From Candidatus Taylorbacteria bacterium RIFCSPLOWO2_12_FULL_43_20 (GTDB lineage: Bacteria > Patescibacteriota > Minisyncoccia > Phycocordibacterales > HO2-43-120), in contig MHSK01000021.1 of the NCBI GenBank assembly GCA_001821295.1, positions 1 to 40,905 on the forward strand: a DNA stretch of 40,905 bases, read 5' to 3'. The translations under genes and the position numbers were made by a program. Below the pieces are notes generated by a model that saw nothing but the letters and a program-made list of their open reading frames with translations, did no database searches and was not told the DNA's origin. Below are positions 9,710 through 13,074 of this stretch, piece by piece (position 1 is the first letter of the stretch; every line of letters begins with the position of its first letter).

Positions 9710-10741
9710 TTACCCAAGAAGTTTTTCCTGGAGATCGGAAGGAGAGGGAATGTCGAGGTGTTCGTAGCCGGTTTTTGTAATGACTCGGCCGCGGGGCGTT
9801 CTGTCAATCAGCCCTATTTGCAGCAAGTATGGCTCATTGAATTCTTCTATGGTTGCTTGCTCTTCCGATAGCGAGGCGGATAAAGTGTTTAGTCCGACGG
9901 GTCCACCAGAAAATTTGGTCGCGATACAGCGCAGTATTTCTCGATCAGAATTGGTAAGACCAAGCTTGTCTACACCAAGAAGAGACAGTGCTTCGTGTAC
10001 CGCTGTTTTTGAAAGCTTGCTCTTTTTGACTTGAGCATAATCCCGAGATCGTTTCAAGAGGTAATTGGCGGTGCGCGGCGTAAATCTGCTTCTTGCAGCT
10101 ATCTCTTTCGCCGCCTCTTCCTCAATTTCTACCCCCAGTATGACTGCGGAGCGGTTTATTATCTCTTCTATTTCCTCATTGGAATAAAATTCCAGACGAA
10201 ATACCCCTCCGGAAAAACGCGATTGCAACGGTTTGGATAAGCCGGCAATGCGGGTAGTCGCGGCAATAAGGGTAAACGCGGGCAATTCCAACTGAATTGT
10301 TCTCGCGGACGGACCTTTGCCAATTATTATGTCCAATGAGCCGGATTCCATTGCCGGGTAAAGCACTTCCTCAATGGTCTTGTTGAGCCGGTGTATCTCA
10401 TCAATGAAAAGAATGTCACCTGAGGCAAGATTTGTGAGCACGGATGCCAAATCACCCACTTTTTCAATGGCGGGGCCGGAGGTTATTTTTATTTGTGATC
10501 CGGTTTCTTTGGCGATTAAATGTGCCAATGTTGTTTTGCCGAGCCCGGGAGGGCCGTAAAAAAGTATATGTTCCGGGGGGTGTTTTCGCTCCTCAGCGGC
10601 GTCAAGAAGAATTTTCAGATTTTGTTTAATACTGTTTTGGCCAATATAATCGTCCCACCTCGAAGGGCGGAGCGTCTGGTCTAGATATACATCGTTTTCG
10701 GGTACATTGCTATCGTTTGTTGCGCGAGTTTTGTCTTCCAT
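9710..10741 (-). CDS. ruvB: Holliday junction branch migration ATPase RuvB
   Basis: RuvB is the hexameric AAA+ motor that, with RuvA, drives branch migration of Holliday junctions. At 343 residues it has normal length. The P-loop GPPGLGKT is at 63-70, Walker B is FIDEIHR near 117, and the family motif AATTRIAGLSKPLQSRF is in the middle. The C-terminal winged-helix domain ends RGRVITKTGYEHL. The ATG is preceded by TATACT (reverse of 10749-10754) at a 7-base gap, with no ribosome-binding site. Such a leaderless start fits other genes here. RuvA and RuvC are encoded elsewhere in the window. Confidence 0.96.
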   Translation of the reverse strand: MEDKTRATNDSNVPENDVYLDQTLRPSRWDDYIGQNSIKQNLKILLDAAEERKHPPEHILFYGPPGLGKTTLAHLIAKETGSQIKITSGPAIEKVGDLASVLTNLASGDILFIDEIHRLNKTIEEVLYPAMESGSLDIIIGKGPSARTIQLELPAFTLIAATTRIAGLSKPLQSRFSGGVFRLEFYSNEEIEEIINRSAVILGVEIEEEAAKEIAARSRFTPRTANYLLKRSRDYAQVKKSKLSKTAVHEALSLLGVDKLGLTNSDREILRCIATKFSGGPVGLNTLSASLSEEQATIEEFNEPYLLQIGLIDRTPRGRVITKTGYEHLDIPSPSDLQEKLLG

Positions 10742-10860
10742 GTTGGTAAGTATACAATATTTTTTACTCTATAGGACTTAGTCCTACTCTAGTAAATTCG
10801 GATCGAGAGACAACAGTATCAGGATTTATATAATTCGGTGTATTTAAACGATTTTCTATC

Positions 10861-10985
10861 TGTCATTCCCGCGAAGGCGGGAATCTAGGGTTCTATCTGA
10901 ATACTGGGGATCCCCACTCCCTGTCTTCGCGAGGACAAGTTTCGCGGGAACGACGCTACTCAGGGTTGTGAGCTGGTACAAGTTC
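10861..10985. repeat. Family A element, degenerate copy
   Basis: The left hairpin, TGTCATTCCCGCGAAGGCGG..., is intact. The right one is broken up by an insertion and substitutions (CTTCGCGAGGACAAGTTTCG). An outer-arm-like stretch, CTACTCAGGGTTGTGAGC, follows to about 10985. Confidence 0.6.
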
Positions 10986-10990
10986 AAGCA

Positions 10991-11019
10991 TTGACACAAT
11001 ATAATGTTTATGCTAAGAT
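10991..11019 (+). promoter_or_regulatory. Strong promoter upstream of candidate structured RNA
   Basis: A perfect -35 TTGACA (10991-10996), a 17-base spacer and -10 TAAGAT (11014-11019) with an upstream TG form a near-ideal housekeeping promoter. Transcription would start near 11026. No open reading frame of note follows in this direction; instead the sequence folds strongly from 11056 onward. Confidence 0.65.
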
Positions 11020-11055
11020 GCAATAGTAAAACAAAGGCCCTTTTTTAAGAGCGGT

Positions 11056-11204
11056 TCAGAATATAAATCTCTAAGCAATGACGCGCTTAGGCGCGTAGTA
11101 ACTTGCATTCGAGGACGTCCTGGTCTCGGCTGTGGCTATCCTTTGAGCAACGTTTAACTTTTGATGTCGCAGTTGAAAGTATTGCTTAGAGATTTATATC
11201 CTGA
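11056..11204 (+). ncRNA. Candidate structured RNA with four-way junction
   Basis: A 19-bp perfect closing stem pairs ATATAAATCTCTAAGCAAT (11061-11079) with 11181-11199. A further TCAG/CTGA extension (11056-11059/11201-11204) lies across a single mismatch. Inside are three hairpins in tandem: P2 ACGCGC-TTAG-GCGCGT (11081-11096); P3 11100-11106 with 11147-11154, extended by 11108-11114 with 11140-11146; and P4 11157-11162 with 11175-11180. The linkers are only 1, 3, 2 and 0 nt. The strand is chosen from the promoter at 10991. It lies in a non-coding gap between two leftward genes. It is not recognisable as tmRNA, RNase P RNA or SRP RNA. A 6S-like role or a MITE remain alternatives. A small TAGAAC-TAG-GTTCTA hairpin follows at 11205-11219, without a T-run. 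Confidence 0.5.
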
Positions 11205-11306
11205 TAGAACTAGGTTCTACCTGATTCAAAGGACATTGTTGCCATATTACCCCTATCTTTACATAAATCAATTGATAAGCGGGGGATAACGTTTTGGAAT
11301 TTTATA

Positions 11307-11366
11307 GTAGATACCGCTTAACGACTCCGACGCTTCGGTCGGAGTCCCGACCGAAGCGTCGGGGAT
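11307..11366. repeat. Family B repeat: arm plus GC-rich hairpin
   Basis: GTAGATACCGCTTAAC leads directly into a hairpin whose arms read CCGACGCTTCGGTCGG and CCGACCGAAGCGTCGG. The hairpin alone recurs at 21072, 24613, 25529 (partial), 27690 and 32152. It lies just beyond the pilB stop codon and could help end that transcript, though no T-run follows. Confidence 0.8.
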
Positions 11367-11397
11367 GGGGAACGGTTTGCGGTGCCGCTCTTAAAAT

Positions 11398-13074
11398 TTA
11401 TATATACTCCTCAAAGTCTATGACACGCTTGATTTCATCAAGAGAGGTGATTCCCAACAAGACTTTGATGACACCATCCTGGTGCATGTCTATTATGCCC
11501 TGGTGGGCGGAAGCTTCTTTGATTTCTTTATCACTTGGATAATTGACCACAATCTCTTCAATTTTGGAATCAATCAGTATTCCTTCGTAAATGCCGGTTC
11601 TGCCTTTGTAGCCGGTATTGTTGCATTGCTCGCATCCTGCGGATACCCACATTTTATGAACCGCCGGTAAAGATGACTTGTCTTGCATACTTGCGGTTAT
11701 TTTATCAATCAAAACTTTATCATCGCCTGCTATCTCGGACTCTTTTTTACAGTGCTCGCAAAGTTTTCTCACCAGTCTTTGAGCCAAAACTATATTGATG
11801 GCGGAGCCGAAAATCTTAGGGTTTATGCCAAGGTCTGCAAGGCGCGGAAAAGCGCCCGTTGCGTTGTTGGTGTGAAGCGTTGAAAATACAAGGTGTCCAG
11901 TTAAAGCGGAATTGATGGCGATTTCCGCCGTTTCTCCGTCTCTGATTTCGCCGATCATTATTACGTCGGGATCTTGCCTAAGTGCCGATCTTAGTCCGGA
12001 TAGAAAAGTATAACCGCTATCGGCGTCTGTCTGCGTTTGCACAATGCCAGGCAGGTGATATTCAATGGGATCTTCTATGGTAATGATCTTTACTCCGGGC
12101 AGGTGTATTTTCTTCAAGAAAGCGTAAAGAGTGGTTGTTTTTCCAGAACCTGTCGGGCCAGTGGTGAGTATCATGCCGTTGGGTTTGGATATCTGCTTCA
12201 AAATAACGTTCAGTAATTTTTCATTAATACCAAGGTCTTCCAACGGCACAGAAATACTCTCTGGATTCAAAACTCGGAGCACTATTGATTCGTTATAAGC
12301 TCCCGGCAAAGTGGATGTGCGTATTTCAATGTCTGTGTCGTTGATTTTGACGGAAAATCTGCCGTCTTGAGCTATGTGCCTGACGTTTAATTTCAAACCT
12401 GAAAGAAGTTTTACTCTGGATAAAATCAAAGTATATGTCTGCTTGTCAAAAGTTAAGACGTTGTTCAGCACTCCGTCCAACCGGAAGCGCAAAGTCACAT
12501 ATTCTTCTTCCGGTTCAATGTGTATATCTGATGCTTCAGTGGATATCGCGCCGGCAATTATTATTTCCAGTATTCTGGTCGTTTTATATCCCTTATGTTG
12601 ACCCAAAAGATCCTGGATGTATTTTTTTATTTGTTCTTTTGTTTTGACTTTGGCTAAGAGCTCGGTAATTTCGTCGTTGGCGATTTCCAGCGCGCCCGAT
12701 TTTGTTTCTTCCGCGAATGAAAGGTCTTTGTATTTTTCCCAAGCGTTTTTCAGTCCTTCCATTGAACAGACGTATTGCGTGACGGCGTACCCTTTGCTTT
12801 CCAGCGTGGCAACGGCTCTTTCTGTTTCATCATTCTTTGGAGCCACGACGGCCAGGTCCAAATTTTTATCAACAACGTTAAACGCGGCCATTTTACCCTC
12901 ACGCGCAAGCTTTTCAGGCACGATTCTCAAGGCATCCATGTTGATCGGAACCATGCCAAGATTTACGTATTCCAAGCCCTCTCTTTTTGCCACCAGCTCC
13001 GCCAGTTCCTCCTCCTCACGGCTTCTAGACTCCGATAGTTTTTTATTTTGTTTATCCTCATCAAACTGTATCAT
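11398..13074 (-). CDS. pilB: Type IV pilus assembly ATPase PilB (GspE/PulE family)
   Basis: This hexameric ATPase powers extension of type IV pili. It has 558 residues. Residues 1-150 form the N-terminal MshEN/T2SSE_N region. The P-loop GPTGSGKTTT is near 303-312, Walker B IMIGEIRDGETAEIA follows, and the His-box TGHLVFSTLHTNNA comes next. A tetracysteine zinc site is formed by CEHC near 439 and CEQC near 479, followed by GYKGRTGIYE, typical of PilB/GspE and absent from PilT. No other pilus gene is in the window. TATACT (reverse of 13081-13086) ends 6 bases before the ATG, so the message is likely leaderless. A family B hairpin lies beyond the stop. Confidence 0.94.
   Translation of the reverse strand: MIQFDEDKQNKKLSESRSREEEELAELVAKREGLEYVNLGMVPINMDALRIVPEKLAREGKMAAFNVVDKNLDLAVVAPKNDETERAVATLESKGYAVTQYVCSMEGLKNAWEKYKDLSFAEETKSGALEIANDEITELLAKVKTKEQIKKYIQDLLGQHKGYKTTRILEIIIAGAISTEASDIHIEPEEEYVTLRFRLDGVLNNVLTFDKQTYTLILSRVKLLSGLKLNVRHIAQDGRFSVKINDTDIEIRTSTLPGAYNESIVLRVLNPESISVPLEDLGINEKLLNVILKQISKPNGMILTTGPTGSGKTTTLYAFLKKIHLPGVKIITIEDPIEYHLPGIVQTQTDADSGYTFLSGLRSALRQDPDVIMIGEIRDGETAEIAINSALTGHLVFSTLHTNNATGAFPRLADLGINPKIFGSAINIVLAQRLVRKLCEHCKKESEIAGDDKVLIDKITASMQDKSSLPAVHKMWVSAGCEQCNNTGYKGRTGIYEGILIDSKIEEIVVNYPSDKEIKEASAHQGIIDMHQDGVIKVLLGITSLDEIKRVIDFEEYI

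Follow-up and report, generated by a model that had tools for sequence, protein, structure and literature searches.

A free-standing gene beside ruvB in Patescibacteria very probably encodes a structured small RNA of a family not on record

Background

Among bacteria, the Patescibacteria make up a very large group; their genomes are tiny and few of their regulators are known. In bacteria, RNAs that are kept at one locus across a class usually belong to core machinery, and some structured RNAs, including raiA, GOLLD, ROOL and OLE, were orphans on discovery, i.e. RNAs of wide conservation and elaborate fold whose function was unknown at the time. The SRP RNA is characterised by a nearly invariant apical loop.

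In the 6S RNA of lactic acid bacteria, a closing stem is combined with a 3'-side hairpin and an apical arm that contains internal loops, and the gene is found in synteny beside rarA (PMC8414754). A large 5' central bulge is a feature of 6S RNA (PMC8414754). Ms1 of Actinobacteria is described as an RNA that is structurally related to 6S, binds the core of RNA polymerase and is present where 6S seems to be absent (PMC9130861).

In this paper, we report the computational analysis of an intergenic element in the genome of Candidatus Taylorbacteria bacterium RIFCSPLOWO2_12_FULL_43_20, for which a new structured RNA had been proposed from the sequence. It very probably encodes a structured RNA that is independent, acts in trans and belongs to an unrecorded family. 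This RNA resembles raiA, GOLLD, ROOL and OLE in being widely conserved and elaborately folded and differs from them in that it has no Rfam match to any of the four, has a structured part of about 150 nt and is restricted to Patescibacteria as far as tested. Like Ms1 (PMC9130861), it is a lineage-restricted structured RNA that can be traced by synteny and is present where 6S seems absent; the four-way junction of its fold sets it apart from Ms1, judging by the Rfam scans and by that description of Ms1.

Materials and methods

The window, i.e. the whole stretch of DNA that was analysed, comprises 40,905 nucleotides (contig MHSK01000021.1 of assembly GCA_001821295.1, forward strand) and all coordinates refer to it. 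A covariance model, R1, was built from 24 BLAST relatives of the RNA; a second covariance model, R2, was broader than R1. Covariation was tested on a sequence-only alignment of 92 homologues covering 47 pairs.

Results and discussion

The element lies in a 656-bp intergenic gap between the start of ruvB (10741) and the end of a pilB/gspE-type ATPase gene (11398), and its features are collected in Table 1. The size given for this gap in the original prediction was right. No convincing coding frame was found in it, the ORFs listed there being unconvincing, and the longest ATG frame inside the RNA has a median length of 4 aa. The proposed promoter was verified at its coordinates and is complemented by a TG extended -10 at 11011-11012, just upstream of TAAGAT. 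Transcription would start at about 11026, a position deduced from the -10 element. The distance between promoter and closing helix differs among homologues.

Table 1. Features of the RNA gene and of its neighbours in the window
Feature	Position	Strand	Remarks
ruvB	9710..10741	-	divergent neighbour of the RNA; Pfam RuvB_N/AAA_lid_4/RuvB_C
sigma-70 promoter (predicted)	10991..11019	+	TTGACA (10991-10996), N17, TAAGAT (11014-11019)
5' leader	11026..11055	+	between promoter and closing helix; length and sequence variable
P1 closing helix, 5' strand	11056..11079	+	TCAG-A-ATATAAATCTCTAAGCAAT; pairs with 11181-11204
P2 hairpin	11081..11096	+	ACGCGC-UUAG-GCGCGU
P3 arm	11100..11154	+	P3a 11100-11106/11147-11154; P3b GAGGA 11111-11115 / UCCUU 11139-11143
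P3 core	U11121-G-G11123 / C11130-U-G11132	+	tandem U.G/G.U wobble
P4 hairpin	11157..11180	+	ACUUUUGAUGUCGCAGUUGAAAGU
P1 closing helix, 3' strand	11181..11204	+	AUUGCUUAGAGAUUUAUAU-C-CUGA; pairs with 11056..11079
pilB/gspE-type ATPase	11398..13074	-	convergent neighbour of the RNA; Pfam T2SSE

The stem formed by 11061-11079 and 11181-11199 is perfect over 19 bp, and the 4-bp extension that had been described for it was also recovered: beyond one A.C mismatch, TCAG at 11056-11059 pairs with CTGA at 11201-11204, resulting in a closing helix of 23 bp. The three hairpins originally placed inside the stem coincide with P2, P3 and P4 of the evolutionary consensus fold; when the homologues were folded singly, 84 of the 92 formed a closing stem around exactly three arms. 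The folding z-score of the window RNA is -5.8 and none of 200 shuffles was equally stable. Since the fold of lowest energy predicted for the RNA of the window alone divides the middle arm in another way, the comparative structure was taken as the better guide. Covariation among the homologues shows that the RNA folds into a four-way junction, with P1 as the closing helix.

Conservation is highest in the inner half of P1 and in the UGG/CUG core of P3. In this core, G11123 and C11130 are invariant in the 92 homologues, and 21-22 of 24 sequences from across the class preserve the U.G and G.U pairs. The apical loop is variable in every arm. The unpaired nucleotides of the junction, all together, number 6 (median). 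Several relatives that belong to other orders have a short P2 or none. Among the deep homologues, several have a P3 that begins directly on P1, and several show a topology of closing stem, apical arm with internal loops and 3'-side hairpin. One homologue (L154:1531-1745) carries an insertion of about 50 nt in apical P3, consistent with tolerance of insertions in this part of the arm.

Covariation in the homologues, on whose absence the original prediction could have foundered, was strong in both the 92-sequence and the class-wide alignments. In the former, 40 of the 47 pairs had at least one double change, and 91.0% of cells were paired, vs 79.5% in shuffles and 40-50% with slid partners, the observed values being reached by 0 of 500 shuffles. 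Changes on both sides were found in 19 of the 22 aligned pairs of P1 (20/21 across the class), in all four aligned pairs of P2, in 9/12 pairs of the inner arm of P3 and in eight of the nine aligned pairs of P4, while the pairs of P3a covaried in the 24-sequence alignment. Class-wide, 30 of 34 pairs were doubly changed and 91.6% of cells were paired, part of this signal hinging on the correct choice of the deep homologues, which were found through R1 and placed by synteny. We regard the covariation evidence as decisive.

Paired positions contained 518 G-U and 110 A-C combinations, an excess that fixes the plus strand as the sense strand. An RNA from the opposite strand was ruled out by these counts together with the orientation of the promoter. 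Of 99 homologues, 88 had a TTGACA-type promoter (≤3 mismatches), often with an extended -10, in the 120 nt preceding the RNA; the figures were 17% for shuffles and 17/99 for the opposite strand. Such a promoter was also present in 15 of 16 deeply diverged homologues. Transcription of the plus strand from a promoter of its own is strongly indicated by these sequence features. The same observations bear on the reading that the conserved entity is not an RNA but a DNA element, i.e. a cruciform, a MITE or a recombination site. Such an element would account for a long inverted repeat with conserved ends, and RuvB itself acts on four-way DNA junctions; however, the strand asymmetry of G-U and A-C is expected only for RNA, the promoter is conserved on one strand only and the sequence is single-copy in its own genome, which leaves a DNA element with hardly any probability. 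A MITE or other dispersed repeat, already disfavoured in the original prediction, was rejected on the grounds of the single copy in the genome and the one fixed, syntenic locus in relatives.

The 3' end of the RNA would lie shortly past 11204. No clear terminator was found in the window, nor in most homologues; terminator-like hairpins within 90 nt downstream occurred in 16 of 99 homologues vs 2.4 expected, an enrichment that is not general. Some homologues (e.g. L030, L036 and L038) have a terminator-like GC hairpin with a T-run between promoter and P1, and such hairpins were counted within the 90 nt upstream in 14 of the 99; attenuation or a short leader product would be possible roles for them. 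Between the RNA and the end of pilB, at 11312-11377, there is a strong GC-rich palindrome (CTCCGACGCTTCGGTCGGAGTCCCGACCGAAGCGTCGG) that is separate from the RNA and to which weak permissive Rfam matches near this position are attributed.

The original suggestion that homologues be sought in other Patescibacteria was fruitful. The sequence of the one congener compared was 87% identical and BLAST against 197 genomes of the order returned conserved matches in many families. R1 found the RNA in 162 of the 197 genomes and in 117 of 140 genera, with E-values to 4e-34 that are rough owing to a short calibration; the relatives with the RNA include Candidatus Taylorbacteria, Vogelbacteria and other Parcubacteria-group genomes. 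Each genome usually gave a second R1 match at the same place on the other strand, as a result of the palindromic closing helix. Among some 360-380 genomes across the phylum, a single R1 match (G502) fell outside the order, and its position at the same locus argues for the specificity of the model. No copy of the RNA was found in viral contigs, nor in phage and plasmid records.

In 98 of 100 loci the RNA was flanked by ruvB (upstream, divergent) and the pilB/gspE ATPase gene (downstream, convergent), and this conservation of the flanks allowed diverged copies to be sought beside ruvB. Of the ruvB-anchored loci from members of the order that R1 had missed, 7 of 11 contained the RNA (L214-L219, L222). 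It was also present in 10 of 10 such loci from other orders of the class (L223-L230, L232, L233), where ruvB was the upstream neighbour in every case; nine were detected by R1 once its filters had been switched off (E 5e-9 to 5e-3), and the tenth, L224, by R2 (E 2e-5), these E-values being likewise rough. The other classes sampled yielded four weak matches (L241, L248, L252 and L260; E 2.5e-4 to 5e-3, equally approximate) that are all placed immediately upstream of ruvB, oriented as expected, and have a similar closing helix (CUGUAG.CA and its complement); these probably represent the RNA in another class. As pilB was not a neighbour at the other-class loci examined, ruvB appears to be the older companion.

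Several other observations were made on copies and repeats. A genome usually carries the RNA once. Genome G019 has a second, diverged copy of the RNA (L208:1508-1658) at a locus without ruvB or pilB. In genome G038 the RNA occurs as a tandem pair, L174:1518-1689 and 1718-1889, separated by about 28 nt, in which P3 is near-identical and P1 and P2 differ. In the window itself, a palindromic element (CATTCCCGCGAAGGCGGGAATC) occurs 11 times (0 expected), at positions 1567, 1612, 3097, 3142, 4924, 4965, 10864, 21476, 21517, 27520 and 27561. Most of these copies form inverted pairs with a distance of 41-45 bp, and one that is unpaired shares the intergenic gap with the RNA.

The Infernal/Rfam scan that had been recommended, carried out at gathering and permissive thresholds with the window, with near and deep relatives and with the isolated RNA stretches, gave no meaningful match to any family. 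This includes the known ribozyme families and the Y RNA family, for which there was no Rfam match, and a literature search, chiefly of published papers, did not find a report of the RNA. A tmRNA was rejected since neither ARAGORN (10700-11500) nor Rfam detected one. An RNase P RNA was likewise rejected, there being no match to RF00010 at the RNA and a match elsewhere in the same genome (G000 contig C7). With the motif and topology tests described below, these results agree with the initial judgement that the element is not a tmRNA, RNase P, SRP or clear 6S RNA. The proposal of a new structured RNA is thus backed by covariation, by a single syntenic locus and by the lack of an Rfam match: the RNA falls into none of the recorded families, and no known RNA that is comparably widespread has such an architecture.

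The original prediction had further read the tight junctions as a hint of a riboswitch or ribozyme, and this part did not find support. A riboswitch or cis-regulatory leader was rejected because the RNA is not followed by a gene on its own strand, the downstream pilB being encoded on the other one; an independent RNA gene is indicated instead. The broader idea that the RNA acts in cis on ruvB or pilB, be it as a leader, an antisense RNA or an attenuator, draws on its position beside ruvB across the class and probably beyond. However, the RNA is read away from ruvB, in the direction of the 3' end of pilB, and is thus the leader of neither; it stays at ruvB where pilB is inverted or not adjacent (L219, L226, L248), and the L208 copy is distant from both genes. 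Cis regulation is hence considered quite improbable. From the orientation, the extra copy at L208 and the absence of a same-strand gene downstream, we infer that the RNA acts in trans as a stable housekeeping RNA.

The closest parallel is with 6S RNA. Both are single-copy genes of short length (about 200 nt here) with a strong promoter, in both the ends are paired in a long closing stem, several deep homologues share the succession of closing stem, apical arm and 3'-side hairpin known from lactic acid bacteria, and both are in fixed synteny beside a gene for a recombination ATPase, here ruvB and in lactic acid bacteria rarA (PMC8414754). In addition, the 6S model RF00013 had no match in 10 genomes of the order. 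On this reading the RNA would be a 6S RNA after extensive divergence, which mimics an open promoter and sequesters RNA polymerase. Nevertheless, RF00013 remained unmatched at E-values up to 10 in 20 homologues, and the conserved sequence is a different one. The topology test recovered a closing stem and an apical arm, but in place of the large 5' central bulge there is a closed multi-way junction with few unpaired nucleotides, P2 sits on the side where the bulge is expected and P3 is placed directly on P1 in several deep homologues. We consider a true 6S RNA unlikely.

The bacterial SRP RNA is also unaccounted for in the group, as the models RF00169 and RF01854 found nothing in 12 and 14 genomes respectively (including G000, G001, G007, G014, G032, G050, G067, G087, G094, G142 and G165). 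Since RNase P RNA was recovered in 11 of 12 genomes, the search method works in these genomes, and the SRP RNA of the group seems to have been lost or to be very diverged. The possibility that the present RNA is an SRP RNA diverged past recognition follows from this gap, but is opposed by its homologues: neither SRP model matched them, the helix-8 core (a GGAAGCAG strand with a conserved GNRA-type tetraloop) was matched in only 1-2 of 106, and the apical loops of the arms are variable, unlike those of SRP RNA. This identity is very improbable.

The preferred reading, a trans-acting RNA of its own family, may be put as follows. A free-standing gene with its own strong sigma-70 promoter would specify a structured small non-coding RNA, transcribed on the plus strand between about 11026 and a point shortly beyond 11204. 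Pairing of its ends would form the closing helix of 23 bp, which bears the three arms in a compact four-way junction. A conserved protein or complex would recognise the RNA through the sequence-conserved inner P1 and the nearly invariant UGG/CUG core of P3, as suggested by the conservation of sequence inside helices. The leading functional candidate for this partner is RNA polymerase, in which case the RNA would be the functional equivalent of 6S or Ms1. This proposal is speculative and is drawn by analogy from the size and promoter of the RNA, its single copy, the pairing of its ends and its fixed place beside a gene for a recombination ATPase; the likelihood of the proposal includes the smaller one of a true, diverged 6S RNA. 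The chances are about even that the RNA represents an unrecorded class of housekeeping RNA that goes back to the ancestor of at least one class of Patescibacteria, and probably further, and that it fills a core role, controlling transcription or translation globally for example, by means of an architecture that differs from that of the known RNA in this role.

Conclusions

Although most of an order of which about 90 families have been sampled carries the RNA, Rfam contains no entry for it. The alignments and covariance models provide a ready basis for experimental work on it, and they open to testing the question of whether Patescibacteria possess an RNA of their own in place of 6S RNA and perhaps of SRP RNA.
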